From contig FN649750.1 of assembly GCA_000310025.1 (NCBI GenBank), forward strand, positions 2,547,894 to 2,611,893: 64,000 bases of DNA. The letters run 5' to 3'. The notes beneath the pieces were generated by a model. The model was not told the DNA's origin. It saw only the letters and a list, made by a program, of their open reading frames with translations, and made no database searches. Below, piece after piece: positions 12,415-60,377 of this stretch. Origin of the DNA: Ectocarpus siliculosus. Lineage: Eukaryota > Sar > Phaeophyceae > Ectocarpales > Ectocarpaceae. Within the stretch, counting starts at the first letter, position 1; each line of letters starts with the position of its first letter. A program made the position numbers and the translations under genes.

Positions 12415-15400
12415 ATGCTTGCAATGCCCTCGAGGACACCGACGACCGCATGGGTCTGCCTACTTTCAATCCTGTCAGGGCCGGGGTTGACGAATGCTTC
12501 ATGTGTTGCACTTCAGGGGATAGTTCCCGGTGGGGGAGAAGGTCTCCTCGATTTGGCGTCCCTACTGTCTCCCGATAGCGTCCTGGCGCAGACCCTAGGC
12601 CCCCTCACCTTTACAAGCACCCCGCTCGTCCCCATTGTGAGTGAACTCGTACCGCGGCGAATTCCCACTGGTTTGGTACCACCGACCTCAAGGAATACTT
12701 CTTTCTGAATATTTAAAGTCAAACTCGTCTCGTGCTAATCCAGGGATTCGTCGGAGGGTATCGCGCGGGGCCAGTCCGTTGGTACGGACGCGGACGAGTG
12801 GTATGCAACTGCCCTGCAGCAGTAGAGGCGAAATCCGTAATAATACATGAATTCATTCCAAACCTGATAATTTCGTAACGTGCGACAAGCTCTTCCTTGC
12901 AACCATGTGGGACATCACACCCCGGCACTTTAGGTAGTTGGTTGAGATACAGTACACATTGGAATTGTGCGATTGACTGCTTAACTCCCGTCGAACATGA
13001 CTGGGCGGAATCGGTTGGAATCGATATGAGTGAGTATCGAAAGGGAAGAGTGCTAAAGCAGTAGTTCACCCGGCCTGCCGCATCTTTGAGGTACTTCACC
13101 AAATTCTCCGCGTCAGGTAGTTCTATCCCACGAAGACACCGCCTCCTTCCACCCTTCATACCCGTCCATCTACTGTTCGTTCGATCCTTTTGTTCCTCCA
13201 CCCCGCGCATACAGGTGGCCGAATGCGCCGGCGTACTCGAGACCCCTATCTCCTTGCGGCTCTTGACAGGTACACCCGGAGTCTAGGCGAGCTTCTTTGC
13301 ACCTAACCGACACGGCTGTGTCACAACGATACTATCTGTAGTCAAACCTCGCGCTCGGCGCCTACATGCCACCGACCGGATCAAATCTATCGGTTAGCGC
13401 TTAGACTGTATCATACTTCCCGAGGGTTGACAACGGACAACACGGGAAGACCATCACAACTAGCTCATGCGTTGCCGCCCCACCCCTCATGTTCGCGATG
13501 GTGTTCTTGTGCTGTTTGTCTGGCTGTGCTGCTGATCTCGCGCCTTTCGGCTCACCTCTTAGCCCTGGACACCACGGTCTTCTCGGTGGGCTCGGTGAGG
13601 TTTTTTCATGGTGGGGTGCTTGACTGTTCGTGATGTGTATCAAACTGACATGATGTTCAGGTATTCCCGCCGCTCTCCCCTCAGGGAGGCGAAGATGTCA
13701 CCGTTTGTCCCACCGCCACGTCTCAAAAACTCGCTCACAACTTGGAGCCAAACGGCGGGGGCTCTCAGTATGTATGACTCTGGACACAGCCCTATCCCCT
13801 GTCTCCCCGCATATTATTCAGATGTTTGAGCCCAACGGAGTAGCTCTAGACATTTTCGGAGACAAGGAGACCTCTGACGCCCGCCGGCGTTGCCAGCCCA
13901 CGACTGAGGAAGACCGTGCGATTTTCGACTTGCACCTGAGCGTGTCCGTCTCGTACGCGATCTCGTACATCGGGTGGAAGCACATGCCCTACTGCTCCGA
14001 GCAAATCGCCGCCGAGGCAGAAGCGCTTGGGGTCCCCATGTCGCTGGTAGACGTCGGCGAGGGTGACCCTGAGCCTAGCACCGACACGCCGTGGGGGCTC
14101 GCGAAAGCCTACATCGACGAGGTGTGGGCGTTCCTCATGGAGAACGACGGCTGGAACGCAGATGGACGCTTAGGGGGCAGGGAAGTCAACCTCACCCCCT
14201 TCACCGGCGACTTCGTTTTCTCTGACTCGGCGGGAAGCACGTGAGTGACAACAAGACCAGAGCAGGAGTAGGACAACGCCCCCTCTTCGTTCAACCCCGC
14301 CTATCTTGATGGGGACACCACTTACCTAAGTGTCCCTCTTGGATGCATCCCTCGGTGCTCGCGTTCGCCAACTTGGGCCTCTCTCTCCTCGTGTCGTCCA
14401 ACACACCATTCAGCTGGGACGGGTACGAGCCGAAGAATTCACCCTACAAGGTAAGGATGCGGCGATTATCGGTAAGGTTTATCTCATTCGAGAGAGAGTC
14501 GGCCATGTTTCATATCTTCTTTCCGTCTCGGCCCACCCGCTGCCGCTCGTGCAGAGATGCATGCACTGCAGGCGGCGAAACCACGAGAAGATTGAGGTAT
14601 AAGATCTGCAGATGGGCTATGCGCACCAAGAGGGTGAAGGCTGGTTTGAGTAAAGGGGTTTGTACCTTAGGCTTGAAAACGTTATTTGAAACTTTACCCT
14701 CATGAGCGCTCTCTCTCATCGACGCTCGTTATGTTAAGCAACGAGCTCCATATGATTCGACCGGCCGGTTCGAGAACAGAATGGATGGGTCCATGGTCTT
14801 GCCGTCATAGAAGGAAAGTGGGGTTTGACACAAACCATGGAAGAACAGGACGAGAACTAGCTCTCTTCGTCCACGACCTCGCAATCCTGCCCGCCGTCCG
14901 TTGTGCGCCGTGCTCCTTTCCAAAAAATTGCCGTCGCTCCCAGTTCAGCAGCACCGAGAGGTGGCAGCCTTTGATGGAGTCCAATGGCCTTGGCTACGTC
15001 AACTCGCAGGTGCACGTCACCCCGCACATCGGCGTTACCGGCCGATTCTTCGGCTTCAACACCGCCGAGGACGAGGAGGCTTGGGGAGCGCGAACACTCG
15101 ACAGACCGCCGTACCAGGACAGGTAGTGCAAACCACTGAGTTTACCTTAATCTACAGGTCACCCGCGGATTTGAACCGAGCGCCATCCGGTCTGTGTGCG
15201 TGAACGGGATTCTACTCGACCCGTGGAAACTGCACCAGACAAGTCATCGCAGTTTGCCTGGAGGCAAAAACATGACCCATCATCTGTTGCGCTCTTCCGC
15301 GTGCCTGGTTAACTCTTAGGTACGATGAGGCCGCTAGAGAGGTTCTCGAGGCGTCAACGGTGGCTGCATACGACCCAGGTGAGGAGGAGGCGAAACTACT

Positions 15401-18400
15401 TTATCGGCTTGAAATAAAACCTTTGAACGCAGTCCCAACAGCGGTCGAACCACGCAGTGTCATAACGACGAAAGTCTACACTTGGTGTTGGCTGAAACCC
15501 TGGGACTAGTTTCGGCTAACCGAGTTTGACTGGAACGAGCTGGGGGCACGTCGTGCAAAGCCCTGCGCAAGGCCGATGCAAGCGTAGATTCCCTCCTGTT
15601 TGTGTCCTGCCCCCTCCATGGGGACTTCGTTATAACGTTTTTCACCTGATCATTTTGCTGTTCTTGATCCTCTCCTTTCTGGCTCTTGCTCTTTCTCCGC
15701 GTACTCTCTCTGTCGCTTCCCTTGAACCAGCAAAACTGTTCGCCATCTCCTTGTTCGACAACAAGTTCAACTCACTTCCTCCACTCAAGATCGTGTACTT
15801 CTTTGAGTGAGTTTATCTGACTGTCTACTGTAGTTCAATGTCGCCATTGGACAAAACTCCTATCGTTTCGATATTGCTCTTGTCCATGTTGTCGATGTTC
15901 ATGTCGTTATCAGCCTTACGTTTGTCGCCAGTCCTAAAGCGCATCTGCGGCTCTTTTTCGCCCCGTATAAATTGTGTATGACCAGCCGCGGCGACTTGTC
16001 CCTGATGGACTTCCTCGAGTTATCGGTCAAGTCGCAGCTCGCGATCTACAACAGCGTGTTACTCGCGTGGAGGGAGAAGGTGACAATACGACTCACAATT
16101 GCAGCGTGAATCGTGATGGTGCCCTGAATTTGTCAATTAGTAGAAACAAGAACCTGAGAACATTGTTGTACCCGCCTAAACATTAAGGCTATAACACACA
16201 CACGTGGACTGGGGGCTTCTTTCCTTCCGATTTAGTGCTGTGAGGTTTTCTGCGCTCGCCTCATTTGTTTTCAGTCATTTGGTTTGTTTACGCGATTGGC
16301 TTGCCTCCCACGTGTTTTCTGAAACAAACATGGTGCGCTGGATCCATTGGAAATAGTGATGACGACGCAGGGACCGCGGCAGAGCAGCGAGCGTTGTACA
16401 CGTGGAAGAATCATGCATTTTCCAGGAGAATCCCCATTGTCTTTCAAACAAGACCGTTTCGCCGCGCGTACTTCCCGCTAATCGCTGCTGCGTATCGTCA
16501 GGTTCGCCATGATGCCCCGCGCCCTGCGTCCGTGATCAGGTGAAGAATGTCGCGGCCAGTAGTAGTCATTCGGCAAGGTGCGGGAAGGGTTGCTGCCCGG
16601 TGCGGTGTCATCATCGCTTGAGCGTATCGGCACTCCAGCTATCCGCTCGATTTTTGCGTCAGCAGTACCAACTTTTCTCTTTTGCCATCGTAGCCCATGA
16701 CCCATGCTCTTGCTAATTTGTTTGGAAGAAAGCGTCAAGGGTCGATTTCGAACGAGGGAGCATATTCAAAAGTCCAACTCTCCAAGCAACTTCTATCTCC
16801 CCTCGATGATTTGACCCCACCATGCCAACGACCGACCAAGGAATGAGCTGGGAGACGAACTCGTCGACGCCTACGCGGGTCCCGACATCGGCATTCAGAC
16901 CATCAAGGCATCGGAGTGGGTAAGTATACAAATCTTCGTGATAGTAGGCGCGTGATTGTCCGTGCCATCGAGTTTCACGCTGCCCATCACGATGCGACGT
17001 CGGTGAAAAACGGGGCATGGGGCGATATTTCATGTTGAAGGTTATGCATTGCGGTTCAACCAAGATGTTATGAGCTAGTCCTCGTCCGAGCAGCTCTGCC
17101 ACATCTCTACAGTCAACACAACCAACCACCTCGCCAAGATATACGGCTACTGTCGCCGAACCCTGTCAGTTCCAATTAAAAATATAACCAAACCATCACG
17201 TATTACCTTCCAACATTCCCCCCCCCCCTCCCCCACTACCGATTCCGATCCCAACCCTAAAAACGCAATGAGGATAAAGGAGCCCACTTGCTGTAACTTG
17301 GAATGGATTCCTCCAAGCAACATTAGGAAGCTTTTCTCTCCCCGGTGTTTGCCATCGGGGTTGGGTTTTCGTCGCTTGGCAACGACGTTGTAAAAGAAGC
17401 CGATTCACTTCGTGAACTCGGCAACCAGGTTGGCGTTTTTTTTTTGCCTCTGTTTTTTTTTGGCGGTAACCATAATGGTGGTCGAGTAGATCATGTTGTG
17501 CGGGGTGGAGAAACCTCACTCCGCGCAAGGGGGATGATCGCACCACGTTGTGTTAAAATGGTCAAGCACCCTCGAGGCAGTTACACAGTGCTTATAACTG
17601 TCTCTGGAAGTGAACGCACCAGAAAATAAGTTAAGTCATACGCAGCTGTCATCCGTACGCAAGGAAGTAAGCACAAGATGCCAAACACCCTTAGCAGGAT
17701 GCAGCGCACCCTTCATGCGACTCGCCGAATACCTCACGGCGCTTCGCGCTTGGTGATGTGAGAGCCTGGTCCGGTGAAAACCCGGCGTGCTCCGTCCTGA
17801 CTTTGTAGGGATGCGAGGTCAATGGTCAAACGACTACGGCATGCACGACTATGAGTACCCCCCCTCCCCCCCGTCCCCCACTACCGATTCCGATCCCAAC
17901 CCTAAAAACGCAATGAGGATAAAGGAGCCCACTTGCTGTAACTCGGAATTGATTCCTCGAAGCAACGTTAGGAAGCTTTCTCGGCGCCCTAACGAGTAGC
18001 AGGGGTAGTGACAATCATCAGGTTTCCCCATTGGCTGGGCAAATATTTTCACGCATGGAACGAACAATGCGCCAACCGAAATCCACTACAGGCAGATGCA
18101 AGGAAATGTTTTATCTCTTCCTGACCGCTCCGCTACTACATTAAATGCCGATGAGATCTCTGTCAGTTTATTCACGAAAGAGACGTGCACCGTCCTTTAA
18201 CCCAAGGCATTCAGTTTGGGGGTGGCCATACACGCAATGTGGTCCCAACAAGTTACTATTTCCTGAACACAACCAGTAACACTTTGGGTCGATTGCAAGC
18301 GCCGTGTTTAACACGAAAGCCAGCGAAGAACTGTATCTTCGGTGTAGTGGTACACCCGGCGATCCTGAAAGAGAAGCAGGGCAATCATCCACCTGAGTCG

Positions 18401-21269
18401 ACCTCAGAAGAAGACGCAGTATCGCACAACCCGAACGTGGTTGATAAACGCTCTTCCGCCGACATAGTTCAAGGTTCTTGCCGGCCATTTGTTTGCTACA
18501 CTCTTGCCGCTGGATGTACTCGCAAGGGTGCGGCACTCTTCTGCATCGTCCTGATCCAACGAATGTTTCCCTCTATCCGTGGTGGAAAGTTATAGCTTCG
18601 ACACCCAAACGTGTCATTGGAACAATATCTTATCGCTTGAACCATAGCAACGATGATGGCGAGAAACGACGAAAACAACAGCTACACAAGCAGTGCGTCG
18701 AACCAACCCTTGCCCCCCCGCTGGTCACCATCTGCTGCAGGAGCCGTACATTCGCACCATGCCTCACAGCGAATACCCGTCAGGCTCTTCGTGCATCTGC
18801 GAGGTAAGCCAATTTCTCCTATACCGTGGTGGCCAGTAAAGTCAATTGAGGATGCGATACGGTTGTCGTGAGAATGCAGCGGGTCATTGCTTCCGCTATA
18901 TCATCGTTTCCGCTATATCTCTCGATTTGTGGTTGGACTATTTTTCGGGTTGGATGTTCGTGGTTGTCTGCATACGTCAAAAACGGGGCAGCGCGGAAAA
19001 CCGGTACCTCGAAAGTAAGCATGGATCGCTCACTACATATTTCGACGCGTTTCTGCCAGTGGACACGACCAGAGCTAACGATCTTGCCGCAGCCCCCAGC
19101 GATGTGACTGTGAGGCCCTGCGGGTCTCTGAAGAGGTCGGACTTCGCCGAACACTATTCTTTGTGCTCACGCCTTGGCTTCTACACACCACATGTTGCTC
19201 CATGTCCAGGGATTTGCTAGTGCGCTCAGGCTCTGGGCGGGGAACGACACGATCGATCCTCCAATCGGGTTCCCTCCCCCCGAGTTCGGCGGCCCCATCC
19301 TCGAATTTTCGAGCTGGACCGAGGTGTCGCAGATGTGTGGAGACAGCCGCGTGTGGGCCGGTTTACACTTTGAGGTGCGCTTTCTGCAAAGTAACGCTTC
19401 AACGAGTGACATTATTGGGTTAGCGTGTGGTCGTGATCATGATCGGGTCTTGACTCAGTCATGACCCGATCATGACCGGGTAATGGCCGAACCATGACCC
19501 AGTGACGACTTCATGACCCGATCGGCCCTGACCCGGTCATGATCGGGTCGTTCTTTCGGTCATGACCCGGTTCCGTGACCCGATCATGACCGGATCATGG
19601 CCGAGCCCTGACCGGGTCACTTTCACAGGAATATTAATATTCGGCCAGACTGCTTGATCATGACCCGATCATGGTGTAGCCATGGTTGTGTCGTTACCGA
19701 GTCTTGATGGTGTCATGATCGGGTCACAATGAGTGGACCATGATCGAGACATGATCATGTCATCACTCCATCGTGACACAACCATGACCCGATGGTCCGT
19801 CTGGATTAATTGCATCAACGCCAACCTAGCGCCGATGCCGGCGCACCAACTTAGAACTTATCCCCCAGCGACAAACCTAGCATCTATCGTGTGGATTTGG
19901 GGTGGCAGGGTTAACGAAATATTTTTCAATCGGTTTCATGCCCCTGCCAAAGCAGAAAATCTATTGTTTAGGAGCACCAGAATTGCTTTGGTCATGACCG
20001 AGTCATGATCGATCTCGATGACGGGGTCATGACCGAGTCATGATCGGGTCATGACCGAGTCATGATCGGGTCATGACTCAATCATTATCAAGAACCCAAT
20101 ATAGTCAAAGTCCGTACGTATATCTCGACGAATATGGTCCTCCACGCCGGAACGTGTTCGTCCACTTGCTGCATCTATGCGGGCATGTGTGGAAAACACC
20201 AGCTGCGCATACACGTGCCAACATAGTGGTCCCTCACAGTTGTTGGTGGTCGTTTTTTCTCTGCATTCGTATTTATTCCTGGCTTGCTCTCGCTTGACTC
20301 TTTTTGTCGCAAACGGGAAAACTAGCCCTTCTAAGCGTATTCCCCGTAACTGTCGAAAATCAATCATCTCAAACGAATGTGGCGGGAGATTGTATCCTAC
20401 CCCCTCGTCTATGCTCAGATGAAACAATTTCATGGTGGTAACGACATGGCCGTTACATGCCGGGGGAATTCTGTACCCACTCAGCCCGTGGTGGGAGCTT
20501 TAGTGTACGTAGAATTATTTCGACCGGCTGTCAAGCACCGTTTGTGTGAGTTTTGGGTTTGCGCTCGGCCTCGAGCGGTTCGCCTGTGACCACGAAAGAA
20601 AGGCGTCCGCGTCAGTAGGACTAACCCTGTCACTAACGCTACATTTGACGTTCTTAGTCCACCACAACACCTAGAACGCATTGTATGGACAGCCACACTG
20701 TCCGGCGCTACAGTAGATAGATCGTACTTGATACTCCTACAACGTAGGATTCAAGTGACCGAATTATTAGCTTCAGCGCGGTGAGTTTTGTTTCCCGCCT
20801 TAGGCACTCTTCTTTTGAGGCAACCGACCCATTTCCACAGCAACGGAAGCTTGATATGTGGTTGACGCACCCTGTATTTTTCTCGTACGATGTTGACGTT
20901 GTCATCTACCACGTAATAGCAACGGCGAGAAATAACTAGATACTTTTGTGTTGTAGCACGTGTTCGACTTCTTTCCAACCCCCAGGCTGACAGGAAGAAT
21001 ATGCTCCGGACGATATGCCAACACCGTTCGCTTCAAGGCGCGTTTCGTTTCCACCTTCCAATTTGCTTAGGTTATTTGAAGGTGTCGTGGGTTAATCGCA
21101 CGTGCGTGTTCTTTTTTTGCAGGAGGCGGTCCCTGCTGGAGCGGAACTCTGCGGTGGCGACGAAATCGCGGTGTCCATAGCTTCTTCTATCGATGCGCTC
21201 ACCGCCGGCGACGAGAGTGCCGCCGTTTTCAAAAGGGATGTCGGCGAGCTTGTACTGCGCCCCTTGTGA
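12415..21269 (+). CDS. Copy B: secreted vanadium-haloperoxidase-like protein, 15 exons, 573 aa
   Basis: Exons: 12415-12636, 12744-12800, 13215-13269, 13563-13594, 13822-14240, 14414-14450, 14944-15122, 15320-15378, 15731-15806, 15986-16079, 16502-16539, 16841-16919, 18741-18803, 19210-19374, 21123-21269. All phases agree and sum to 573 codons plus TGA. Residues 1-30 read as a signal peptide (core AWVCLLSILS), so export is inferred. The middle carries RWQPL and TPHIG as in bacterial and fungal chloroperoxidase relatives. Vanadate-site motifs: K410-x6-RP (VRHDAPRP across an exon join) and SR-x5-H (S516, R517, H523). Position 465, histidine in classical PSGH enzymes, is serine (EYPSGSSCICE). Vanadate or phosphate binding is likely; halide oxidation is uncertain. 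The start is the ATG giving the signal peptide; ATG 12424 is an alternative. Confidence 0.85.
17235..17339 (+). repeat. Left 105-bp direct repeat around the SINE-like element
   Basis: The sequence starting ACTACCGATTCCGATCCC and ending AAGCTTTTCTC recurs almost unchanged at 17880-17982, with only a few mismatches by eye. Both copies follow C-rich runs. The pair brackets the inserted element in intron 12 of copy B. Confidence 0.8.
17341..17866 (+). mobile_element. SINE-like element copy 1, in intron 12 of copy B
   Basis: About 525 bp beginning CCCGGTGTTTGCCATCGG and ending GAGTAC plus a C run. A highly similar copy lies reversed at 45871-46484. The last 75 bp or so, from TGCTCCGTCC to GAGTAC, also match the 3' end of a LINE fragment at 45241-45316. 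There is no coding capacity, which fits a non-autonomous element mobilised by a LINE with the same tail. The alternative is a truncated LINE of another subfamily. Confidence 0.65.
17880..17982 (+). repeat. Right 103-bp direct repeat around the SINE-like element
   Basis: Second copy of the 17235-17339 block, immediately after the element's C-rich tail. Either it is a very long target-site duplication made on insertion, or a local tandem duplication happened around the element. The sequence alone does not decide. Confidence 0.75.
19430..20095. repeat. Degenerate palindromic-word array (TCATGACCCGATCATGACC), intron 14 of copy B
   Basis: Two blocks, about 19430-19800 and 19990-20095, are built of variants of TCATGA, GATCATG and CCCGATC/GATCGGG in irregular order. 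Almost every unit is self-complementary, so the DNA could fold in many ways. The blocks are separated by about 190 bp of ordinary sequence. Copy A has a different array at the homologous place. Confidence 0.8.
20584..20630 (-). repeat. Dispersed repeat family, copy 2 (short, CGTGGTCACA)
   Basis: On the minus strand this reads ACTGACGCGGACGCC then CGTGGTCACAGG, matching 8547-8645 over its last 45 bp. It lies in the last intron of copy B. Truncated copy of the same family. Confidence 0.55.
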
Positions 21270-23747: not shown

Positions 23748-24874
23748 TTATATAACTGGCAGGCCCTGCATCCATTCCACCACCTCTTTGTGTCGACGGG
23801 TTGCTGCCACTCTGGCGCACGTTCGCTCATTCCAGGGACACCCTCCCTCCTCTACCGCCCAACGCAGAACCTCAAGATAACCCCCCTGCGCCGCGCAGGC
23901 AGCGGTGTCTTCGTCCCAGGGGCACCCTTCTCTCTTCAGCCACTGCAAGCATTCCAGGTGTCCCCCGAGAGCCGCGTACGAGCACGTGCGCCTGTCCAAG
24001 GGGCAGCAGTTCTGGCGCGCCCAGATTAGCATCGGCAGGTTGCCAGCCAGCGCGGCACCGTGCGAAACGGTTACGTCCCACGGGCATCCGTGCTCGCGGG
24101 CCCACTTGAGCACCTGCAAGCGGTTTCCCCAGGCGGCGGAGCTGCACGTGCTGGTGTCCCAAGGACAGCCATGCCTCCTCGCATACTTAAGGACTTCGAG
24201 ATGCCCCCCCTCGGCCGCAACAGTACACGTCTGTTCATCCCAGGGTCTCCCCTCTTCTCTCAAAAACCGCAGGACGTGCAGGTGTCCGCCGAGGGCGGCC
24301 AGGCGGCACGCGTCCGGAAACCAAGGCGCCCCCGCCTCGTCCCGGGCCCAGCGGACAACTTCGAGGTGCCCTCCCTTGATGGCGGACCGCAGAACGTGGA
24401 CGCTGAGCCGGCACCCCGACGACTTCGCCCACTCGAGAATGTGCAGGTGCCCGGCGGATGCCGCTTCCGCCGTCATCATTACCACGGGGCCGAGGGACTT
24501 CCAGCCGTCCCCGGACTCCCTGGCCGCGGTTTGGATCCCGCCGAGGTTTCCCGCGCTTGCCGCGAGGCAGAACACGCCTCCCAGGTGCCCCGTTGCGGCG
24601 TGGAAGGAGGGCTGGCCCATGATCGTCTCCACCCTGGCGTTGGTGGCGGTCGCCAGGGACACGCTCGTCTTCTTCGGGCGGCCTTCCGCTTCCCAGGTGC
24701 TCCGCCAGTTACTGCTTACGCCGGCGAGAAACAAGTATTCGCTCTTTGCGCAGTAGCTCAGCACTTCCGATATGGTGTCAGTGCTGGCGTCCAGGGGGTT
24801 TCGCGCTTGGCGACCTGCTCTCGAGGCGGCAGGCGCGCGTACGGGGGCGGGGGACGGACGAGGGACGGCTGATT
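23748..24874 (-). CDS. Ankyrin-like repeat protein with F-box-like N-terminus
   Basis: A GC-rich open frame of about 375 codons without introns. Near the start, TISEVLSYCAKSEYLFLAGV followed by SSNWRSTW resembles an F-box helix pair, though the match is loose. From about residue 130 there are roughly seven repeats of the type GHLEVLKYARRHGCPWDTST, each about 27 aa, the divergent ankyrin-like repeat common in Ectocarpus and in giant viruses. The C-terminus ends VVEWMQGLPVI. No ATG lies between an upstream in-frame stop and the conserved part. The exon therefore probably starts at the acceptor at 24874, and the initiator lies in an unseen upstream exon. By family the role is protein binding, possibly substrate choice for a ubiquitin ligase; that is inference. 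High GC and lack of introns contrast with its neighbours. Confidence 0.75.
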
Positions 24875-26837
24875 CTGTCCAAGATGGTGGTTAGTCCGTT
24901 ATAAAATTTAGTTGTTGTGGGGCATGAGTGACATCATGTTCTGGGAAAAAGCGGGTGTCTTTGCGCAGAAAATCATGTATGTGACGGACCGTGTCGTCCA
25001 CAAGTTCGAGTGCGAGAGATAGTGTAGGAAACAATCGGAGGTTCGTCCCTTGGGTTCGAGAGTTGCCCGTTTGTCTTCGTCCCACACCCAAACGTACACG
25101 AGCTACCCAGCAGATAAACTGATACGCACATGGAAATCAACCTTTGTTGTTTTAATGGCGTCAAGTTGAAGAACGTTTCAGTCTTTGCCAGTACCTTCTT
25201 CAATCCGCACAGATCCCAAAAGGCGCCGGCGTATTCCGTGATCATCGGCAAACTCCCACACAGTGCGAAAGCGTTGCAACAATTCCCGAAACTAAACCAT
25301 CCCACGCACGTGCAGGTGAAGTTTTCGAGCGACCGAGCCAATACCGTAAGAACGGTTGGCTGCGCATTCTGCATGCTGATGGCAACCTGACCCCAACATA
25401 CCTGGCACGACGTCCATCTTTCACAGGCGGGATGCGAAACACCACTGCGCGAACCCTGGCCACCTGTTCCCGGCAGCCTTCCAGCACCCTCCGCGTCGAA
25501 AAGAACGCTGGACGAGCGGGCACACTGCGGTAGTGCGAAATCACGAGAGACACGTACCGGTTACACGCCAACAGTCACATAATGTCGGCCACGTCCGTCG
25601 GATCGCTCTTTGTTCACGTGGTACGCTTAAATACATTCTCTTCGATGACGCTCAAGAAAGAAGGTGGTGTTTGTTCGACGCGCTCTGATAGGGTGCGATT
25701 GGTAGGGAATCGGGTGGCGCGAGGTCTAGGGGTTGAGGCTGGAGTTTGTTGGATTCGATTGTGCTCAAAAGTTTCTGCCCACCGTGGGTTACAGAGGACG
25801 GTGCTACGCGTCCAACTTCACAGATAGAAAATGAGCCTTCAGGTCATGGACGATGGTCCACGAGGTGCGGAACGCCGCTTTTCCTGCGGCGACGTGATGT
25901 CGCCGTACGTGACACGACGCCCGAAGATTTCGGGGACGGACGGCCCTTCATCTGACAATTCTGTGACGACAAATTGTTGAAAGCTAGGTGTTGTGCACTA
26001 CTATTACTGTTCTACTGTGTTGCACGACTACAGTAGCTACAAGGTAGAGGTGTTATGTGTTTGTTGCAAAGAGAACCACACAACAGAACCAGAACAATAC
26101 GGAGAACCTTAATTTTCGAAAAAATGGCAAGTTCCACTGGCAGTCTTGGCCTACGGCAATAGTGGGCCGAAGGAACGATCACAACTACAACACCCTGAGA
26201 TATTTACAAATCTGTACCAATACAATTGTATTCAGTCTTACAGTAGCATAGCTGAACAAGGTTGTATATGTGATAATTATAGCTTCGTCATCGCGCGCGC
26301 CGTGTCTTTCCCCCAAAGCTGTCACAAAACAACTGAAAGGTGGGGTCCCAACGGCTTGACGGCCGTGTTCTTGTGTTGCATGCACGCCCAGAACGAGCCA
26401 ACGACTACCCCTCACCGCCTCAACATGTCAGCAACGATAGCTGCACGTTTAGACTGCCCGACCACACAGCTCCTCGCATAGCCCGACGAATTTCGGAACG
26501 CTATCGTACGAAAGCCGGGGACCAGGAGTAAGGCTCCCTTTTTTTTTAGGTTCCAAACATTGCTGTGGGCACCGACATCATAAATGTCGACGGTCCCATG
26601 TACTAAAAGAAGGCACAGCCTACATGTAGGTTTGTGGCTTTAGCCTTACCCCATGCTTTAGTTTCCAGCGAGTTGTCGCTGAAACCCTCAACGTTCGTAA
26701 TTTACATATATATCAAGAGCACCTAACCCGCTCAAAGTATGCATGAATCGTCATCACCAGTAACAAACGATGTGCACCCATCCATATATATATGCGGTTG
26801 GCGTGGTCTAAGCCCCAAAAAGAAGCAAATAGCGTAG

Positions 26838-47000: not shown

Positions 47001-47407
47001 AGTGCCAACAAGAGCTCCACTGTGTCGGTCTTTTTGGGGTACCCAGCGGTTAGGTAGGCAATGAAGGCTGCCTCTTGGGTTTCGTCATCCTGTCTCCGGA
47101 ACACCTCGGCCAGCCGAGGATTGACGCTTCTGATGCGTAAGTAGCCGCCGCAGCCGCCATTACCGACAAGTAGTCATGTTTGAGGGGAAAAAATGTCAGT
47201 CATAACGTGATAAGAGCACAATGTACGTGAGTCGTTGGTCAGAACGTCCCCCCTTGGTAGTCGGCTCCAAACCAGCCACGCTCAAGACGTGGACGTCGAC
47301 GACCGTGCTGTCAGATGCTCGCACCTCGTTACGGGGAAGGGCGGCACCGGCAGCAGCGTGCCCAAGCCTTGCTCGCCGACCGCGGCTGCTTCTAGATCTG
47401 ACGCCAT
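38009..47407 (-). CDS. Tryptophan synthase alpha-beta fusion with degenerate beta active site
   Basis: Exons: 47407-47325, 47129-46997, 46606-46523, 45490-45334, 44496-44328, 43829-43637, 43297-43041, 42400-42259, 42045-41797, 41588-41409, 40527-40300, 39933-39831, 39362-39250, 38113-38009. All phases agree: 731 codons plus TGA. TrpA (about 28-300) cleaves indole-glycerol phosphate; its acids are kept ([15 protein letters not shown]). An Ala/Thr-rich linker follows. TrpB (about 340-731) normally joins indole and serine on PLP. Here HTGAHK is HTGAQE (Lys to Glu at 421), AETGAG is AATGSG (Glu to Ala at 443) and GGGSNA is GEGSDA (566-571). LSGRGDKD and ALEPAHA remain. The frame is open throughout, so selection on the rest is likely. 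Intron 5 uses a GC donor. The N-terminus is uncertain: an in-frame ATG at 47503 exists, and no clear plastid leader is seen. Confidence 0.88.
38329..38386 (-). repeat. Dispersed repeat in a trpAB intron, partner of 52149-52210
   Basis: About 58 bp similar to 52149-52210 (plus). Read in the same frame, both copies give VRWAL, VKTR and LCELLSL, with differences that mostly keep the peptide. This points to a once-coding mobile element whose family I cannot name. Confidence 0.55.
44856..45316 (+). mobile_element. 3' end of a LINE (non-LTR retrotransposon), in trpAB intron 4, antisense
   Basis: The frame to 45131 reads [20 protein letters not shown], then a C-x-C-x3-C-x4-H-x4-C zinc knuckle ([17 protein letters not shown]), then YREMFEAW and EKTVAVPGH. 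This is the usual C-terminal tail of a LINE reverse transcriptase protein. A more upstream plus-strand frame (44699-44905) may belong to it but is out of register, so the copy is 5' truncated and frameshifted. Its 3' tail, 45241-45316, ends GAGTAC followed by a C run and matches the tail of the SINE-like family. It lies between exons 4 and 5 of the fusion gene on the opposite strand. Confidence 0.75.
45860..45870. repeat. Target-site duplication, left (AGCAAAGGGGG)
   Basis: The 11-bp AGCAAAGGGGG here and at 46485-46495 bracket the reversed SINE-like copy. It merges with the element's G run, so the exact edge is uncertain. Confidence 0.65.
45871..46484 (-). mobile_element. SINE-like element copy 2, in trpAB intron 3
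   Basis: On the minus strand it starts CCCGGTGTTTGCCATCGG, has the first 80 bp or so repeated in tandem, then two poly-T runs set between GGTTACCG and CGGTAACC, and ends GAGTACACC plus a C run. It matches 17341-17866 along its length. An 11-bp target-site duplication flanks it. It is in the same orientation as the host gene and close upstream of exon 4 (45490). Confidence 0.7.
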
Positions 47408-49936: not shown

Positions 49937-50350
49937 TTACTTGGCATTCAACATCCGCCAGAGCGAAAGGAACTTACGCACGACCGTACCGGCCCACGCA
50001 CTACAGTGTAGGACCCTCGTGACATTTTTGTTGAATAAGTTCTCCGCCAACACCCACACTGGCTGGCACCAATATCTTAAGTTCGCAAAAGATGGTAGGG
50101 GGTACACGACTTGATCCCAAAACGAACAGCAAGTTTCAGTGATGTGGAACCAACCTGAGGAGCAAGCAGATGTCTGGATCATCGGACCGCTGCGACCAGC
50201 GATTTCGTTCGTCGGTGAATCCCTGGGCCTGGTCATCATCCAATTGCCGCCGTTGACTGGAATATATGACAACGTGCCTGGTACCTCTACCGACATGCCG
50301 ACTACACGCTGGAGAAGGAGGGAGGCCACCGTCGCGTAGGCATGTCTCAT
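49937..50350 (-). pseudogene. Inverted remnant of the haloperoxidase-like first exon (copy D)
   Basis: The frame from 50350 starts MRHAYATVASLLLQRVV and further on reads SYIPVNGG and SACSSGWF. These line up with copy C's first exon (SCVPLNGIV, AACSSGWF), and the DNA around TGCTCCTCAGGTTGGTTC is nearly identical. No later exon of the family is found downstream on this strand. It stands head to head with copy C, with about 440 bp between the two ATGs, so one promoter region could serve both. It is probably a partial inverted duplicate. Confidence 0.6.
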
Positions 50351-50794
50351 CGTTACACCTTGCCCAGAAAAATTCGCCCGTAGGTAGAGGTGGGGGGATA
50401 GATTGCGGCGCTGTCGTGCGCCCAGAACATCAATAAATCTACGTCAGAAGGAACTTTCTAAGAAATGACCGGGTGGTGCCGAAGACTTGAGAATGATTCT
50501 CTTGGCGAAAATTCAATCTGCGGGTTGTTTCACGTCGTCATGAAGAGGCATATATTTTTTGAAAATTGAATTGCAGCTTGTAAGTCCAATTACTCAATAG
50601 TCTATGTGTTATTCATTGTTAAAGTACATTCATTCTTACTCTTCTACTCCAATACACCAGCAGGCGGGAAAAATTGAAATTGCAATCCTGCTGCGGATTC
50701 CTCAAACGCCCGCCCCCCGACCCTCCCCACACTCCTCGCGTCCACGCTGCGTCGTGCATCAAGAGCCTTCAAACTTAGTTCAGGCTTTTTCGCG

Positions 50795-53378
50795 ATGATG
50801 CACTACTGCCATGGTGTGGTGTTGCTGCTCCTCGCGCGTGCCGTAGTCAGCACCCCATCACCAGTGCCATCGTGTGTCCCGCTGAACGGTATCGTTAGTG
50901 ACGGAAATGGTACGACGACGACTCTCAACCTCGACGAGATCAAGGTCTCCATGAACACCGAGATCTTCGATTTCAGCAATCCGGTGATTCCGACACTGGC
51001 CGCATGCTCCTCAGGTTGGTTCAAGAGTGTGACTAGTTTGTGCAGGAGGTACAGTCCATTCGCAGAGGTGGTATCGCCATGAGAGCGAGAGCTTGTTGTG
51101 TGCTAGTGTGTTTCGAGTGCTGATGATGATGATCGAGAATTCCCGCTGCAATCGTGAACTCACCTGCAAACTTTTTCGTCGCCATCCCTTCACCATTGAC
51201 TACACACCAAGGTCTGGAGACTCCCGTCGCTATGAGGGCCCTACTAGGTGAGCCTGTTTACACGTAGGATGTGGACGGCGGGCTCTGGTCGTCGTGGTCG
51301 TTACAGTAGACGTGGTCGGTCGACAATGGAGTCCATTCCAATGGGTAGTCTTTCTGTGTGTGTTTTTATTATTCCTTAATTCTGTAGCAGCAGCTACTGC
51401 AATGTGCATCGTGTACGACTGTACCGCCGTTCATCAATAATCGTCCCGCTTTCATACTGGTTTCGAGTGCAGATTATTCGTCCCTGCCCACAGGGATATC
51501 ACCATCCGCCCGGCCCTCTGTAGCCCGGCTCTCAGCAAAGGGGGGCGAAATACATACATGTAGTCCGAATAGACTGCAAACCCAAGTGGAACGTCCTGAA
51601 GATGGCAGGAAACCGTAGCAACCGTAGCGCCTGTTCAGTGTATTTCGGAGTGTGGTCGACTATGTAGGGAGAGCAACTACAAAAATACAGAGCGAAAAAA
51701 GTATATTTTCCCCGCACACCCTCTCTTTTAACCTGTATCTTTCTAAAGAGGAAAAATATTCCGAGATCCGGCAGTGGTCGGTAATTTGACATTTTGGCAA
51801 GACAAGGATTCGCTTCGGCGACCCTGTGTCCATCCGAGACGTGATGGTTGTCTCCAAACACGCACTCTCGAGAATGTTCGGCGGCATTTTCAAGAGCCAA
51901 CGGTTGTCCCCAAAAAGGCCGAAGGCCGATGCGAGTGTACCGTGATTCCTACCGTGATTCCTACCGTGATTCCTCCATCATTGTGAGCCCAATTATTTGT
52001 GCCTCTCCCGAACAAAAGCTGTTTTTTTCGGCGGTCTTCGACCATCTCGACATCAAACATGCAGATAGACGCGGCCCCCAGCACGATTTTCCACAACCGT
52101 GCTCAGTTGGCTGCATGCATGATCAACATCATCAGACTGGTGTACAAAGGGTTCGCTGGGCTCTTCCAGTGAAAACACGTCATCTGTGTGAGCTGCTGAG
52201 CTTGGGAAGCACTTGACTGCTCATCATCTTAAGTTGCAGCGCTCCTCGCTTCTCGAATTCAAGTTTCTCCAAGCTCCACCAGAATAGTCGAGGCTGAGGT
52301 CGTTTCGTGTGTTTGTTGGTGTAGACTACTCTCCCCTCTTCCAGCACATATATGTAGCCAGATGGGATGCAGGGCATATAATATCCTGTAGTCTAATGAA
52401 GCTCATCAGGATAGTGTAGACTACAACTAACTGTAGTTCAAAAGTTTTATTGAAGCTCATCATACATCACACACCGCGTACTCGGCGTTTTTTTTTTTTC
52501 GTCTCCTTTTTCGTGGATTGCGGAAAAAATGTTTGTGGTGAATCAAGGGTACCCGAGAAATTTCTCCGCACACCTGTATACGTACCCCCCGGGACCCAAA
52601 ACAAGACACAAATTAAATTATTGCCTTTGCTATTTTTTTTGTTCTGATTCATTGACGTGTGGGTCGTGTAGTGTACGAAAACCTATCTATTTGACCTGGA
52701 GCAGACGAAACATGGGCACTACAACAGTACTGGGCCCTCTGTAGTGCGGGGTTGCAACGGCACTACACCGGGCACCGGCACTATTCAGACTGATGCTCGG
52801 CGAACTGGCGGGGGGGAGAAGCGACGTAGGGGGGCGGGACAGGAACAGAACTGGCCGAAGTGGTGTGTTCTCGACGACCTGAAGGCATTCGGGGCCGACC
52901 ACGGATCTACCAAAACCGATCCATGTTGTCTCGGAATCCCGGTACCGAGAGACACGGCACCCGGAAGCCACGAAGGTGGAGGGCGGAGTACCCTGGCATG
53001 CGGCGGTGCTGCAGGGAGCTGAGAGGTTCATGATCTCCTGGCACAACAAGGAAGAAGAGGCCAGCCGACAACGAGCGCTCAAACGAAACCACAAGCCAAC
53101 AACCAATGGGGAAGAAAGCAAACGAGAAGAGACGGACCGAGTGGCGTGATACGTGCCGGATTGAAACTCTTTTGGCCAATTCCCCCCCCCCAACGCTGCA
53201 CCATTGCACCAACCCCCCACTAGTGATGACGTACCATTACTACCATGTATCGCTGGTTGGTGGACATGTTGGCGTGTTTGCTTGTTCGTTAGTGGTCTCT
53301 CCACCGTGTGCCTTTTTCTGTCTGTTATTTCTTGTTTTTTTCGGCCTGGTCCCTTTTTGTCCTCGCTCTATCGTATTC

Positions 53379-53430
<52 letters not shown>

Positions 53431-56400
53431 TTTTTACTCTTTTTTCTCTTTGTCGCTCTTTTTTCTCTCTTTTTCTGTATCAGATAGCCTTGTCTCTGCT
53501 TGCGTGTGAAGCACCAAAGTTGAACCAAGGGGGTGCACCTCTTTCTCTCTGGCCCGTGATGCTGACTCCTAGTCTCAGTTGGTATACCTCGCATAGCGCG
53601 TAGAGGGAGCGGAGGACTCCAGAATATCTGTCGTTGATTTCTATTGACTTGCGGACCCCTCGGGGCCAGTTTATTTGAGTGTACCTTTTTAGGGTAAGTT
53701 AGCCTGTGACCACGGGGGGAATCGACCGCGTCAAGTGTTGGATCAGTACGGACATATTAATATGAAGGTACTGGGTAGAGAGAGATCGGAACGGTTTTTA
53801 ATGTGAAGACAAAAACAACAACAAAGAACAACTATCTATTCAGAATAGTGCCTCATAGCGCCGGTCCGACACTATTATTGACGTTTTGGGGGTGTTTGAT
53901 TTCATGGTGTGGCGCTCACGCTTTGCGGGGCCAAGATAATGTAATGCCAATTGGATCGAAATAATTGTATATAATAGTGGACGAAGCTAAATCTCGGTCC
54001 TCGTTGCCCTCTCCTTCGATGTTGCAAGATAGATAACAGATGAAACGAAAAAGAAACACAACAGGAAGCGAGCTGCCAAAAACAAACAACCATGTAGTAC
54101 CGCTCACCCTCACTACATTCATACTTCTCGACAAAGAAGCTCTTCTTATGTCTGTCTGGCACACCCGCTTCGATGTTGCAAGAAAACAACAAAAAATATA
54201 AACCAAGAAAAGCACGACAACAGGAATCGCACCGCACGAAAAACAAACAACCATGTACAGCCTACTACCCTCACTCCGTCGCGACAAACTCTCTCAATCT
54301 CTGCCTAGCGCACGTGCTTCGATGTTGCAAGAAAAAAAACACAAGAAAAGCACACAGACAGGAAGCGAACAACCACATGCACCACCCGACCAGATGCACC
54401 CTACCCCACTACGTCTCGACAAACAAGCTCCCTCATGTCTGCGTGGCGCACTCGCTTCCTTAGCGGAATGCGCTGCGATCATCGCCATCTTCGCACAGTT
54501 CACCTTCCGCACAAAGCATGGTGCCCCTCTGCGAAGAGCTGTTCACCAGGGCGCACCACACTCGCAGCGCACAGGCTAGGGGGCACGCCGATGCCCAAAG
54601 ACCCCCCTACGTCATACGGGGCCCCTTTTATAAAGAATTTTCTATGGCATTGTTTTATATAGGATTATTATGGCGTTTTACGGGGCGAGGTGGTCACTTC
54701 GTACCCTCCCCCCCCCTCAAAACCTCTCAAACAAGAAAATGGGTACGTAGGTGTTGGAAAAAATATTTTCGGGCACCCTTGGGTGAATGTCAATAGCGGA
54801 CACGATATATATGTACCTGTGGTTCACAGGTTCACCAAGAGAGTGTAGTGGTCACCTTTTGTTTGCTAGGTAATTCCCACTCGTTCAGTTTACATAGTCT
54901 AGCACGATGTACGTACATAGTCTATAGAGAGAGGCATACTAATTTCTGCGCTCTCTATCACTGCAGGGACAGCGGGCGGGCGGGAGATTAATTTGGCGGA
55001 TAACTGAAAATAACGTCCAATTTGTCTGCCACAACGCTGCCCGCCTTCCCTTCCTGTCTGCCCCTCTACTGCTCTGCAGCTATTGACACCTCGGTGTGGT
55101 CTGTGGCTAGCGCCTTTCAACCGGCGCCGTGGCTGAATATCTTCGGTGACAAGCACACGTCCGACGAACGCCGCCGCTGTTCGGGAAACACGGACGACGA
55201 GGAAGAACTTTTCCTCCTGCACTACAGGGTATGGATATGCATAGCACCAGCCGGGAACACCGTGCTTCTTGTAGGTGGTGATATTGAGCGCAAACTCTAT
55301 CCGTGTTTCTCTGCCGACAACACGATGCTCCTTCCTGGAGGTACTGAGGACGAACGCCATCCAATACGATCCAATAAGAGTAATGTATTTTCTGTATAAT
55401 GGGAACTGGTTTGGCTTGCCCCATCACAGTGGCACCGGTAGTGAACAACGTTCCTGCAAGCTGAAAGATATTGGTTTCAGAGAGGAATTGTCTACAGCCC
55501 GTAGCTGCGCGTACGCTGGTACAGATATCATGACAATGTTCAACATAGGCAAAACATACTAGAATTATGGGTGGGACGCAGAGGGGGGGTGTCTTCATGC
55601 CAACATCTGTACCAACCACCTTGAGGTCATACGGGATTCGTCCTTGATCAGGTGGCCGAGATCTACGCAGTCACCCACGCCGCGCTAAAGGCGATGCCGT
55701 TCTGCCGTGCTGAGATAGAGCCACTCATGATAGCTCGGGGCCACCCCCTGTCCTTCCTGGAGGAAGGGGACGACGACAGCATCGACATGTCGACGCCGTG
55801 GGGGCTTGGCCGGGCCTACGCTAACGAGGGCTGGGCCTACCTCACCGCAAACGACGGATGGAACGCGGACGGGAGTATGGGAGGCCGAGAATTCAACCGC
55901 GTCCCGTTCACCGGTGAATTTTTGATGACTGATTCGGAGGGCCATTCGTGGACGCCCTACGTCCCCAGAAACAGCCCCTACGAGGTGAGACGTACAGACT
56001 TGTAGTAGGTGGGCACCATACCCGTAGCTTGTCGTAGGTTGGAGGAGGGCAATGGAAAATTTTCTTCGGCCCTTGTGTAATTTTCACCAAGGTCTCCCGA
56101 TGTAGCTCCAGCGTCGGGTGACGTTATACAATCGTCAGACCTTATCAGCGAAGGAATGCTTGTTTTGTTTAACCCGCAACTGCAAGGGAAGTATGCGCCG
56201 TACCGCAGTCCTCAGCCGGCATCCATGGAGGCCGACACACTCCGACTCGCGTAGCTACACACACCTTGCTGTTCATGTTCAGGAAACCTATGCAGTGGAC
56301 ATGCAATATATTCCCTCGACTAAGCAGGCGAACTCGGCATTGATGGTGAATCGGTCGTTCCATTATCCCGCCTGCTTCCCAAGCCACCATACGCTAACCC

Positions 56401-59400
56401 CTCGCTTGTACGCACTCGACGATGCAACAGCTCACGAACATCAAGAGGTGGCAGCCTCTGGTGGAGTCGGATGGTCTCGGGTACGTTTCGACTCAAGAGC
56501 ACGTGACGCCGCACATCGGGAGCACCGGCCGCTACTTCGGATTCTCTTCCAAGGAAGACGAGGAAGCCTTTAGCTCGCGCACGATAGATGCGCCAGACTA
56601 CCTCAACAGGTGGGCAGGGCTGGCCTCCCTGCCTTGTGCGCATTTAAGGATAGGGGAAGGGTTGTGGTATGTAGGTCGGCCAAACTTGCTGGTGTTCGTA
56701 AGATCCTTTCCTGCCTGGATCTGTCGGGTTTTTTGGTGGTTTACCCCTCTCGAATAGGTCACTCCCAAGCATGCATGCTCATTTCTCAAACACGTGGTGG
56801 GATACGTGCCGAACAGGTGCGCCGTGAGGACCCGACGCAAACGATCGAGCGTTTTGCACCCTTCTTTTCGTGTCGTATCGGGCTAGAGTAGTCTATCGCC
56901 GAAACTTCCAATCACTCGCTGAGGTCAACAACTGTTCCGATTGCTCAACCTGTGTTGCGACCAACCGCAATAATACCAGACGTCTACACATTTTCGCTGG
57001 CTGCTACTCGTGTCAACCACAGGTTAGCTGTTCCGAAAACCTTCGAGGAACAGCATGCTGTCGGTGTTTTCAGCGACCACCCTTTGCTACTATGGTGTAT
57101 GATCCAGGACCGCACTGGTGTTTACCCCTCGTTCGCCCCCCCCCCCCAACATCTACGAACGATGCCCACAGGTACAACGAAATCGTCCACGACGTTCTCA
57201 ACGAGTCCGCCACAACCGCCGAGTCACCCTACAAGCAGTTCGCCATTTCGTTCTTCGACAACAAGTTCAACTCCCTCATTCCCCTCAAGATCGCTTATTT
57301 CCTACGGTAAGCTTTGGTTGTGCGGCACAACCTGCGTGCTTCTGGTTGTAGCAACCAGGGATTGAAAATGTGTTTCTTGCAAGAGCAGCTTCAATATTTC
57401 AACGCGACACTCTTTCAAGGTCGCCCAGCCCCTTCGATCACGTGTGCTCGAAAACGTGAGCCCCTTTTGCCGTAGGTCAGTCTGGATGTTGCGTGGAGGT
57501 GTATGGCTAAAGACCATAAATCGCGTCACAAGATGTACATGCCGCAGTTGAATCGTGCACCCAACAATCAGGAACGGCATTTCTTGACCACTCACCTTTG
57601 AATTCTCTCAAATGTTCACAATGTATGTCCCTGCATTGCAACACCGAATGCAATCGGAAAACGAAGAGCGGAGTTCGTTCGGAAATGCCATGATCAGCTC
57701 TCAACCTTTTTCATCTGGAGAAATGGAGCATGTTGCTTTCGGAGATTGCCTCTGACGTTTCTACATCAGGACAACGTTGCGCGTACATACATACTTCTTG
57801 TGAGGATACCAACAAGTAAGAGGGCGACAGCAACAAATGCAAACCTAAGGAAGATTCGAAAGAGGGCCGGAGCGACCGCGTGACGTTTATGAGACTCCAC
57901 CCGACCTTAGACAAGGGGGAGTGAGAGTTCGGCGCTTCGCGATAGCTCTCACGCCGCCGTCCTTTGCTCCGCGAAACAGGAGCACGACCCGGGAAAACTA
58001 CACAACAACGGATTTCTACCAGATCACTCTCGAGGTTCAGCTTGCCGTTTACAACGGCATCTTGCTTGCCTGGAAGGAGAAGGTGGGCCGCACGTTCATG
58101 AACCATTATGGCAGGCACCACCCTCTTCCCAAGTGTAGTCATTTGGCCAGGACACTCCGGCGTTGAGGACAGCAGCCCCTTCCTCCCGTGAAACGTGTCG
58201 GTCCCAGGGAGTAGGCTTGAAGGATGCTCGTAGATCCGAATATCCGGCATCATCCGATGTGGAAAGGGTTGATTGGTGTCGTTTGCCGTGCGAAGAATCA
58301 AAGGAAGGAAAAAATTGCCTCGCCTCGCGGGCGTTGTACGGTGGTCCGAACCGACGGTGAGGTTTTCCAAATGTTTCCAGTACGGGTGGGGTTTCCCAAT
58401 CCTTCCGCACATAACGTTCCTGGTGCCGATCGCTCACCGTGAGAGTCTTGGATCAACGGTGCTGTTGCAATTTGGTAGAAAGCATAGTCTACCGAAGAAC
58501 GAATCACGGACATTCGGCACTGTCACGATTTCAACAACATTTAACGCGACCGTGCACCTCACATGCACCTGCTTGGCTTACCTTTCCTTCGCCCGACGGC
58601 TCCCCTCGCCCCAACATGCTCCGCCGATGCCTTACCCGCGTTAGATTCGCCACGACCGACCCCGCCCACCCACCATGGTCAAGTGAGAACATCGTCAGAA
58701 CCTCAATTTTAGTGGCGAATGTGTAATGCATAGATACATCGTGTGCATGGTACCATACATATGGTAGAGAGGTTTTGGGCACCAGCATCAGCACGGTGGT
58801 GTCGATTGGCAGGTTGGTGTTTTATGGTTGATGGGCAGAGTATCGCATACATGTGTCAGACTGCCAAGACACCCAGGATGCACGTGTAGTTTGATCCGCG
58901 CCTTGCCTCGTACATCGTTTTTAGAGAGCACTTGTTCCCAACGACGATGTAATCTAGACTACCAGAACATTTTTCCTGGGCAAGCCACATCACACGGAAG
59001 GCTGTACGGAGAATACGATGCCAGTGCAAGTCGACTGTAAGCGCATGTCATGTTGTACTCTGGCCCACCTGCTCGCGTGGTTCACCCGAACAAAGACTTG
59101 ACCAGTTGCACGAGGAAAAATCAGCCGCAGAGAGGCGTTTGGCTCCTACTTTTTCAATCAGTCGTGAACATCGGGGTGTCGACACGGAACCAACGTTGAA
59201 AAAACATCTAACGAGTGCAACGAAACGCCGTCGCCATGTTCAATAGGCACAAGCTCGGTGATGCACTGGTGGAGGCCTACGCCGGGCCTGGTCAAGGAGT
59301 CCAAACTATCAAGGCATCGGAATGGGAGCCTTTCATCAGGACCATGCCTCACTCCGAGTACCCTTCGGGCTCTTCGTGCCTTTGCGAGGTGCCAAGTTCA

Positions 59401-60377
59401 TCGTTTGCACTTCTCTCGTTTCTATAGTGTTGATGCTGAAGCATCGGTTTATCCCCTGCTGTCAGTGGCACTTGCAGGGTAGTGAAGTATCGCCCTTCAA
59501 ATCACGGAAACTGACAGGGGATATATACCTCGACTGGAACACAATTCTTGTACCAACCTACACAGTAGCTCCATAACATGACACGGCGGTTCTCATCTAG
59601 ACTACGCATTTGCACGCTTACATATGTAGACTAGTCATGCTACTGGCCGATTGCTTGTCTTCCTCCCTCGACGCCCCCCTCTCTGCCCGGTCTGTTCCTC
59701 GCGAATTTCCAGGCGTTCGCACGGCAAATCGAAAACTTCCTTGGCGATGACACGATCGAGCCCGCTCTTCAGTTCCCCCCGGGTCCTCCGCCCCCGGGCT
59801 TCGATGCACCGCCTCTGGAATTCGCTTCCTGGTCCGAGATTTCTCAAGTCTGTGGCGACAGTCGTGCCTGGGGCGGCATGCACTTTGCGGTCCGTTTTTT
59901 TGTTGTTGTGGATCATAGACTACATGTGTAGTCAAAGCGTTGATGAACACCCCCTGTTTCGATCCACTCGCTACTCAATTGAAATGTCTGCCCGGTGCTA
60001 TACGTTTTGTGACTTTGTGATGTGTCCCAATCGCTTATCCGGTCCCGTATGATACGCCTCAATATATCATGGATTCCTCCATTCCTTCCGTGCGCGCGTC
60101 GGTACGTATAGCTCATGGTTTGAAACTTCTACCTGCCCAGCAACGAACCATCGGGTACACTTGGTACATTTGTGATGGAAAGGGCGAGGATCCAAACCAT
60201 TCATCGCTTGTCATCCTCTTGTTGCTTCAGGGAGCCGTTCCAGCGGGAGCCGAACTATGCGGAAGCACGGACATGGCCAAGTCAATCCACGACTCGTTTG
60301 AGCGTCTCAAAGTAGGGGACGAAAGTGCGGCCATCTTCAAGACAGACATCGGCGAGCTGATGGTGCGCCCCCGTTAG
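50795..60377 (+). CDS. Copy C: secreted vanadium-haloperoxidase-like protein, about 569 aa
   Basis: Exons: 50795-about 51067, 51212-51247, 55080-55228, 55652-55984, 56431-56609, 57172-57306, 57980-58082, 58645-58682, 59247-59388, 59713-59889, 60231-60377. All phases agree from 51212 on; the join of the first two exons is not settled. Residues 1-25 are a signal peptide (VVLLLLARAVVS), then SCVPLNGIV matches copy B. Motifs: K-x6-RP (KIRHDRPRP), PSGS in HSEYPSGSSCLCE, and SR-x5-H in GDSRAWGGMHF. Matching exons have the same length as B's: 179, 135 (59+76 in B), 38, 142 (79+63) and 147. The frame is intact, so a working protein is likely. Serine replaces the acid-base histidine here too. The second intron is 3.8 kb and full of repeats; B's counterpart is 293 bp. 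Confidence 0.82.
51343..51382 (+). repeat. Dispersed repeat, partner of 60621-60660
   Basis: GGGTAG, TCTTTCTGTGTGTGT and ATTCCTTAAT occur in the same order and orientation at 60621-60660. One copy is in the large intron of copy C, the other just after its stop. Confidence 0.5.
51938..51973 (+). repeat. Three perfect 12-bp units (TACCGTGATTCC)
   Basis: TACCGTGATTCC is repeated three times without change. It lies in the large second intron of copy C. Confidence 0.85.
52149..52210 (+). repeat. Dispersed repeat in copy C intron, partner of 38329-38386
   Basis: About 60 bp matching the reverse of 38329-38386. The shared frame reads VRWALPVKTRHLCELLSL here. It is likely a scrap of a coding mobile element. 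Confidence 0.5.
53380..53432. repeat. (TTA)n microsatellite
   Basis: About 15 TTA units broken once or twice, followed by a T-rich stretch. It lies in the large intron of copy C. Confidence 0.85.
53698..53815 (-). repeat. Dispersed repeat family, copy 3 (CGTGGTCACA)
   Basis: On the minus strand it runs from a (GTT)n-like stretch through AAACCGTT and CAGTACCTTC to CGTGGTCACAGGC, in the same order as 8547-8645. It is the longest copy in the window. Confidence 0.65.
54014..54452 (+). repeat. Three-unit minisatellite, about 150 bp per unit
   Basis: Units start at 54014, 54168 and 54317, each with CTTCGATGTTGCAAGA followed by an A-rich stretch and, in the first two, AAAACAAACAACCATGTA. The spacing is 154 and 149 bp. 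It lies in the large second intron of copy C, about 600 bp before the next exon. Confidence 0.75.

Follow-up and report, generated by a model that had tools for sequence, protein, structure and literature searches.

Two intact Ectocarpus siliculosus genes with serine at the acid-base histidine site probably encode vanadium haloperoxidases of the NapH1 branch

Two spliced genes of the brown alga Ectocarpus siliculosus, here named copies B and C, very probably encode vanadium-dependent haloperoxidases of the NapH1 branch (Streptomyces-type, Pfam VCPO_2nd), with the residue roles proposed below. Both proteins carry PSGS where classical relatives have PSGH, and what seemed to be a catalytic loss turns out to be a His-to-Ser switch that occurs once on the tree and, together with an upstream histidine and a second lysine, is characteristic of an entire clade. 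The genes lie in a stretch of 64,000 nucleotides, hereafter the window (G000:C25:2547894-2611893), of a genome of 189 Mb in 492 contigs.

Gene models and active-site residues

The splicing of B and C was modelled from conserved exons. Copy B (12415..21269, forward strand) consists of 15 exons (12415-12636, 12744-12800, 13215-13269, 13563-13594, 13822-14240, 14414-14450, 14944-15122, 15320-15378, 15731-15806, 15986-16079, 16502-16539, 16841-16919, 18741-18803, 19210-19374 and 21123-21269), which are separated by GT-AG introns throughout and give an open frame of 573 amino acids. Exon 12744-12800 is the weakest-supported of the 15. An extra exon at 13661-13771 was present in an earlier model and was removed on comparison with copy G, a paralogue described below; the Pfam, PDB, alignment, survey and tree work was done with the model that still held this wrong exon, which lies outside the parts matched by Pfam and PDB, the columns counted and the columns of the tree. 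Copy C (50795..60377, forward strand) has 11 exons (50795-51014, 51212-51247, 55080-55228, 55652-55984, 56431-56609, 57172-57306, 57980-58082, 58645-58682, 59247-59388, 59713-59889 and 60231-60377), GT-AG introns and an open frame of 552 amino acids. For its small second exon there is support from paralogue D and weaker support from B.

The spliced models bear out the original prediction that both genes keep K-x6-RP, PSGS and SR-x5-H and that the serine of B is residue 465. The first motif of B reads K410-x6-R417, with Lys410 at the end of one exon and Arg417, which we take to be the equivalent of fungal R360, in the next (16502..16539). His458 and Ser465 are encoded by the exon at 18741..18803, within HSEYPSGSS (HSEYPSGSSC with the following residue), and the exon at 19210..19374 supplies SR-x5-H with Arg517 and His523 (R517-x5-H523), which would bind vanadate by homology. 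The corresponding residues of C are K385, R392, His433 and Ser440 (again in HSEYPSGSS, exon 59247..59388), and R496 and H502 (SR-x5-H, exon 59713..59889). The position of the serine is referred to as site 404, after what is presumably its counterpart, His404 of fungal chloroperoxidase; the site seven residues upstream would then be Phe397 of that enzyme.

Between B and C, 287 of 542 aligned residues are identical. The two genes had been described as diverged in intron layout, and the layouts do differ (14 introns in B, 10 in C), yet seven introns coincide in position (within 2 columns) and phase, so that the arrangement is largely common. The dN/dS ratio of the pair is 0.16, with dS saturated, which indicates that B and C are under constraint, a statement about the genes as a whole and not about the serine alone. 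The N-termini of both proteins resemble signal peptides when judged by eye, which agrees with the predicted export; both are probably secreted.

Several other features were observed around these genes. Intron 16920-18740 of B holds one member (17335-17858, forward) of a repeat pair whose other member (45886-46484, inverted) is found near tryptophan synthase exons; the two are 75-95% alike in translated pieces and are perhaps a mobile element. Another intron of B contains, at 19430-20100, many short GATCATGACC-type repeats. An unbroken ankyrin-repeat frame of 380 amino acids occupies 23751-24890 on the reverse strand, within an intron-rich region. The reverse strand between B and C carries, at 41719-47173, a row of exons that belong to tryptophan synthase alpha (Trp_syntA) and to a beta-like PLP-dependent enzyme (PALP) and that perhaps form one fused gene.

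Other copies in the window and in the genome

A search of the whole genome gave 51 exon-sized matches with C and 56 with B. These matches correspond to seven loci, A to G, save for a few at E >0.1; the weak matches on C27, C53 and C66 and at C25:2188788 (E 0.16 to 5) were taken as chance. Within the window, copy A (4378..7129, forward strand) is a relic of the 3′ exons of a B-like gene, with in-frame stops, PSVL instead of PSGS and a deletion that took the SR of the third motif. The cluster of genes initially proposed is therefore composed, over ~56 kb, of copies B and C, which are intact, and the relic A. In addition, a stretch resembling the first exon of C, in its signal-peptide part, was seen on the reverse strand at 50099..50368 (35% over 103 amino acids, E 9e-6), ~430 bases from that exon; no further exons were seen beside it, and it is possibly a leftover of an inverted duplication.

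The remaining copies lie outside the window. Copy D, which precedes the window by ~280 kb on its contig, has one frameshift; copy E, on contig C10, is intact over the core; copy F (locus L032, G000:C464:882530-888620) is without two active-site histidines; and copy G, on contig C368, is a relic of which the 5′ exons alone were seen within the 9.9 kb examined. The vanadate residues K, R, S, R and H align in B, C, D and E, and the upstream histidine is present in the same four copies. Site 404 is serine in all five copies in which the exon is intact (B, C, D, E and F), preceded by glycine in B and C and by alanine (the PSAS form) in D, E and F. In copy F, the upstream histidine has become threonine and the vanadate histidine asparagine, in a sequence that is otherwise well kept and that shows dN/dS of 0.29-0.34 to C, D and E. 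F is likely to be unable to bind vanadate and yet still constrained, and its missing histidines imply that some copies may not be haloperoxidases.

It could be argued that the PSGS copies are decaying pseudogenes, and the relics A and G, the frameshift of D and the lost histidines of F would fit such a reading. Against it, the reading frames of B, C and E are uninterrupted across the aligned core and every catalytic residue is in place, and dN/dS ranges from 0.16 to 0.34 in ten of ten pairs (dS approaches saturation in pairs that include B), which indicates that the family is under constraint. Dead or dying paralogues are thus a very improbable explanation of the serine.

Family assignment by profile, sequence and fold

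Assignment to the NapH1 branch is based on profiles, sequences and a fold model. Copy B matched Pfam VCPO_2nd with 60.7 bits (E 2.4e-16; cut-off 27) and stayed under the cut-off of 27 with DUF6851 (22.5 bits), and in an exon-by-exon profile search the single exons of C scored under the VCPO_2nd cut-off. A search of NCBIfam profiles with B gave no match. The PAP2 profile (PF01569) matched neither B nor, exon by exon, the six frames of the genome; together with this profile, PAP2 phosphatases are defined by PSGH, where the algal proteins have serine in place of histidine. In the PDB, the best sequence matches were 9ptr (E 2e-44 with B and 9e-40 with C), 9l8x, which is XhnO11 (2e-32 and 2e-35), NapH1 (3w35; 7e-29 and 2e-30) and NapH3, with the Zobellia iodoperoxidase far behind. 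The motif reads HPEYPSGS in NapH1 and 9l8x, HPEYPSAS in 9ptr and HPEYPSGF in NapH3.

The fold model of C, built with 50 bacterial relatives, covers 466 of the 552 residues with pLDDT 78 and pTM 0.82; a fold obtained from the single sequence reached pLDDT 33.5 and was discarded as useless. Foldseek placed NapH3, XhnO11 with vanadate and NapH1 in its apo and holo forms closest to the model (E 7e-22 to 3e-20, TM 0.68-0.74, rmsd 4.7-5.4). The Zobellia iodoperoxidase (8e-9) and fungal chloroperoxidase (2e-6 to 9e-6) ranked lower, and phosphatases were weakly matched, at E 5e-3 and above.

Serine and the upstream histidine across the family

No relatives turned up in the first bacterial and viral scans, which started from the five aligned paralogues, probably because the patterns derived from algal-only stretches. 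Once PDB relatives had been added, 160 bacterial stretches were confirmed, and 80 of them were aligned with five algal and four PDB proteins. Histidine stands seven residues before site 404 in 88 of these 89 proteins, the exception being copy F. The count on the 80 pattern-found proteins was rejected as evidence for a rule at site 404, because the pattern had demanded serine or phenylalanine there as well as the upstream histidine, and a survey with Pfam VCPO_2nd was run because the upstream histidine had itself been demanded. This survey comprised six genomes chosen for holding pattern hits, all with matches, and genomes drawn from four groups around them, with matches in 11 of 369, 24 of 297, 27 of 396 and 23 of 297. 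It yielded 103 loci, four further listed matches without a locus not being counted; two of the 103, L152 and L223, were excluded, as a catalytic column was missing or misaligned.

The survey proteins fell into two groups. Among 36 high-scoring proteins, which are of the NapH1 type, site 404 is serine in 31, threonine in 4 and valine in 1, and 34 have the upstream histidine. All 65 low-scoring proteins have histidine at site 404, with phenylalanine (52), histidine (10) or other residues (3) at the upstream site. When the eight loci of the six chosen genomes (seven high-scoring, one low-scoring) were left out, the counts at site 404 became 29 of 29 and 64 of 64. The HMM used to separate the two groups had been trained on proteins retrieved by the motif-demanding pattern; the gap in score between the groups (618 to 335) and a tree made with the motif columns left out speak against that pattern as the cause of the split. 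In this tree of 151 rows, which is unrooted, comes from a quick search with SH-aLRT as its sole support measure and carries a long-branch warning in the histidine group, site 404 needs to change once and the upstream site seven times, if serine, threonine and valine are treated as one state and the phenylalanine of NapH3 and one glutamate are left uncounted. Survey and tree together show PSGS as the hallmark of the proteins on one side of a single branch, and the algal genes are on that side. The PSGS clade expected by the original prediction thus appears as a Ser/Thr/Val group separated by a single change, and the view of the serine as old and kept agrees both with this position and with its presence in every copy that retains the exon intact. 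Ten low-scoring proteins hold both histidines by alignment, and in four bacterial ones (L164, L167, L211 and L229) both are visible in the motif itself, as in NHPEYPSGH; such proteins are possible intermediates of the switch. As for the proposal that a neighbouring histidine might fill the site, that residue is there in 34 of the 36 NapH1-type survey sequences; by its position it may also take over the function.

These results bear on the reading first given to the serine, which saw in the genes a PSGS family not described before and with a chemistry of its own: the fold might have a different proton donor, transfer phosphoryl groups or serve a non-oxidative purpose. The serine does exist and is conserved among the algal copies, and the homologue NapH3, according to its PDB title, catalyses a rearrangement and not halogenation, so that the haloperoxidase fold can be repurposed. 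Nevertheless, serine is the most frequent residue at this site in an established clade that has structures with bound vanadate, NapH3 has phenylalanine and is without the lysine discussed below, whereas B and C have both serine and lysine, the PF01569 match is missing, and the same serine is already reported in macroalgae in the main text of PMC13198595. New chemistry is consequently very improbable. The family cannot be called undescribed, as NapH1 and XhnO11 are known PSGS haloperoxidases or halogenases and macroalgal versions have been published, and a changed chemistry survives only as the selective halogenation already proposed for bacterial enzymes.

A second lysine and the proposed mechanism

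A lysine at NapH1 chain position 328 is kept in B, C, D, E and F and is threonine in NapH3. It occurs in 79 of the 80 pattern-found proteins and in 32 of 37 high-scoring against 1 of 66 low-scoring survey proteins, a rough comparison because 14 of the low-scoring rows have a gap in this column. Lys324 and Ser427 of NapH1 are presumably the residues at chain positions 328 and 431, with a consistent offset of 4. If these numbers match the residues meant in the published work, B, C, D and E hold the complete Lys-Ser signature. According to a preprint, selective enzymes can be recognised by a catalytic lysine and serine described in NapH1, and the pair helps to remove non-halogenases of the NapH3 kind (PMC12871659); another paper mentions a transient chlorinated lysine that has been suggested for the napyradiomycin enzymes (PMC13054786). 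Retention of this lysine makes the algal copies candidate selective halogenases of a eukaryote. The word lysine is absent from the main text of PMC13198595, and in the open-licence literature neither a statement on the Lys-Ser pair in algae nor the retention of this lysine by algal copies was found in print.

In the proposed mechanism, vanadate would be held by the lysine, arginine, Ser-Gly, arginine and axial histidine shared by the family. The acid-base role of fungal His404 would be carried otherwise, with histidine standing at the Phe397 site and serine at site 404, and the second lysine would be the equivalent of the halogen carrier proposed for NapH1-type enzymes. The likely reaction is a peroxide-driven oxidation of halide at the vanadate, after which the second lysine would perhaps take up the halogen and pass it on to an organic substrate bound by the enzyme. 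On this basis, the PSGS and PSAS genes may tentatively be seen as eukaryotic halogenases of a bound substrate acting through an enzyme chloramine or bromamine, with copy F as a halogenation-dead paralogue that has another task, like NapH3; we consider this rather unlikely, although it would, if true, place selective halogenation in a lineage from which only haloperoxidases regarded as unselective are known. A milder version of the NapH1-branch explanation, to which we give a little under an even chance, is that the enzymes are unselective haloperoxidases releasing hypohalous acid for defence or peroxide removal, the lysine and serine being inherited and unused for selectivity. The signal-like N-termini would suit such a role, and classical brown-algal haloperoxidase genes rise on elicitor and peroxide treatment, these genes belonging to group 1 of the paper and not to its serine group (PMC13198595). 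This milder reading is opposed by the co-occurrence of lysine and serine in the clade and by the use of that pair to predict selective enzymes (PMC12871659).

Comparison with known systems

Classical algal vanadium bromoperoxidases have the motif PSGHA, and B and C differ from them in having serine at the site of that histidine. The Ascophyllum nodosum (1qi9) and Corallina (1qhb) enzymes share the superfamily and the vanadate site with the algal copies and are distant from the model of C in Foldseek (E 0.035-0.046). Two motif patterns of classical bromoperoxidases gave no hit in the genome, which an intron in the motif could also explain. Expansion and a likely bacterial origin are reported for brown-algal haloperoxidases in the main text of PMC11765636, which does not contain the words histidine, serine or motif. 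The macroalgal transcripts of group 2 described in the main text of a 2026 paper on ~70 macroalgal sequences (PMC13198595) have the same replacement, the histidine of motif 2 being serine in 22 and threonine in 2 of them, and NapH1 and Mcl24 are named there as active examples. Compared by their published description, these group 2 sequences (among PQ699180-PQ699250) are likely to be of the same family as B and C.

The closest known systems are bacterial. NapH1, a Streptomyces vanadium-dependent chloroperoxidase (PDB 3w35, 3w36), has EYPSGS, the histidine at -7, the vanadate residues, the second lysine and the fold in common with B and C, and differs from them in sequence (~30% identity) and in setting, being a bacterial enzyme of antibiotic biosynthesis whereas the algal genes are eukaryotic, contain introns and encode N-termini that resemble signal peptides. 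XhnO11 (9l8x) carries HPEYPSGS at ~30% identity to the algal copies, and the haloperoxidase of 9ptr and 9pts, the top PDB sequence match, carries HPEYPSAS, the PSAS form of D, E and F, again at ~30% identity. NapH1 has been solved in its holo form and XhnO11 with vanadate, and both have EYPSGS. A long distance separates the algal group from all bacterial rows of the tree (a path of ~3 changes per column; 26-33% identity), so that the substrate and the use of halide could have changed. In conclusion, B and C are ordinary members of a known branch in which serine is the normal state; they constitute no new family, and their value is that they name intact eukaryotic genes as test cases for selective vanadium-dependent halogenation of the kind proposed for NapH1 and its bacterial relatives.
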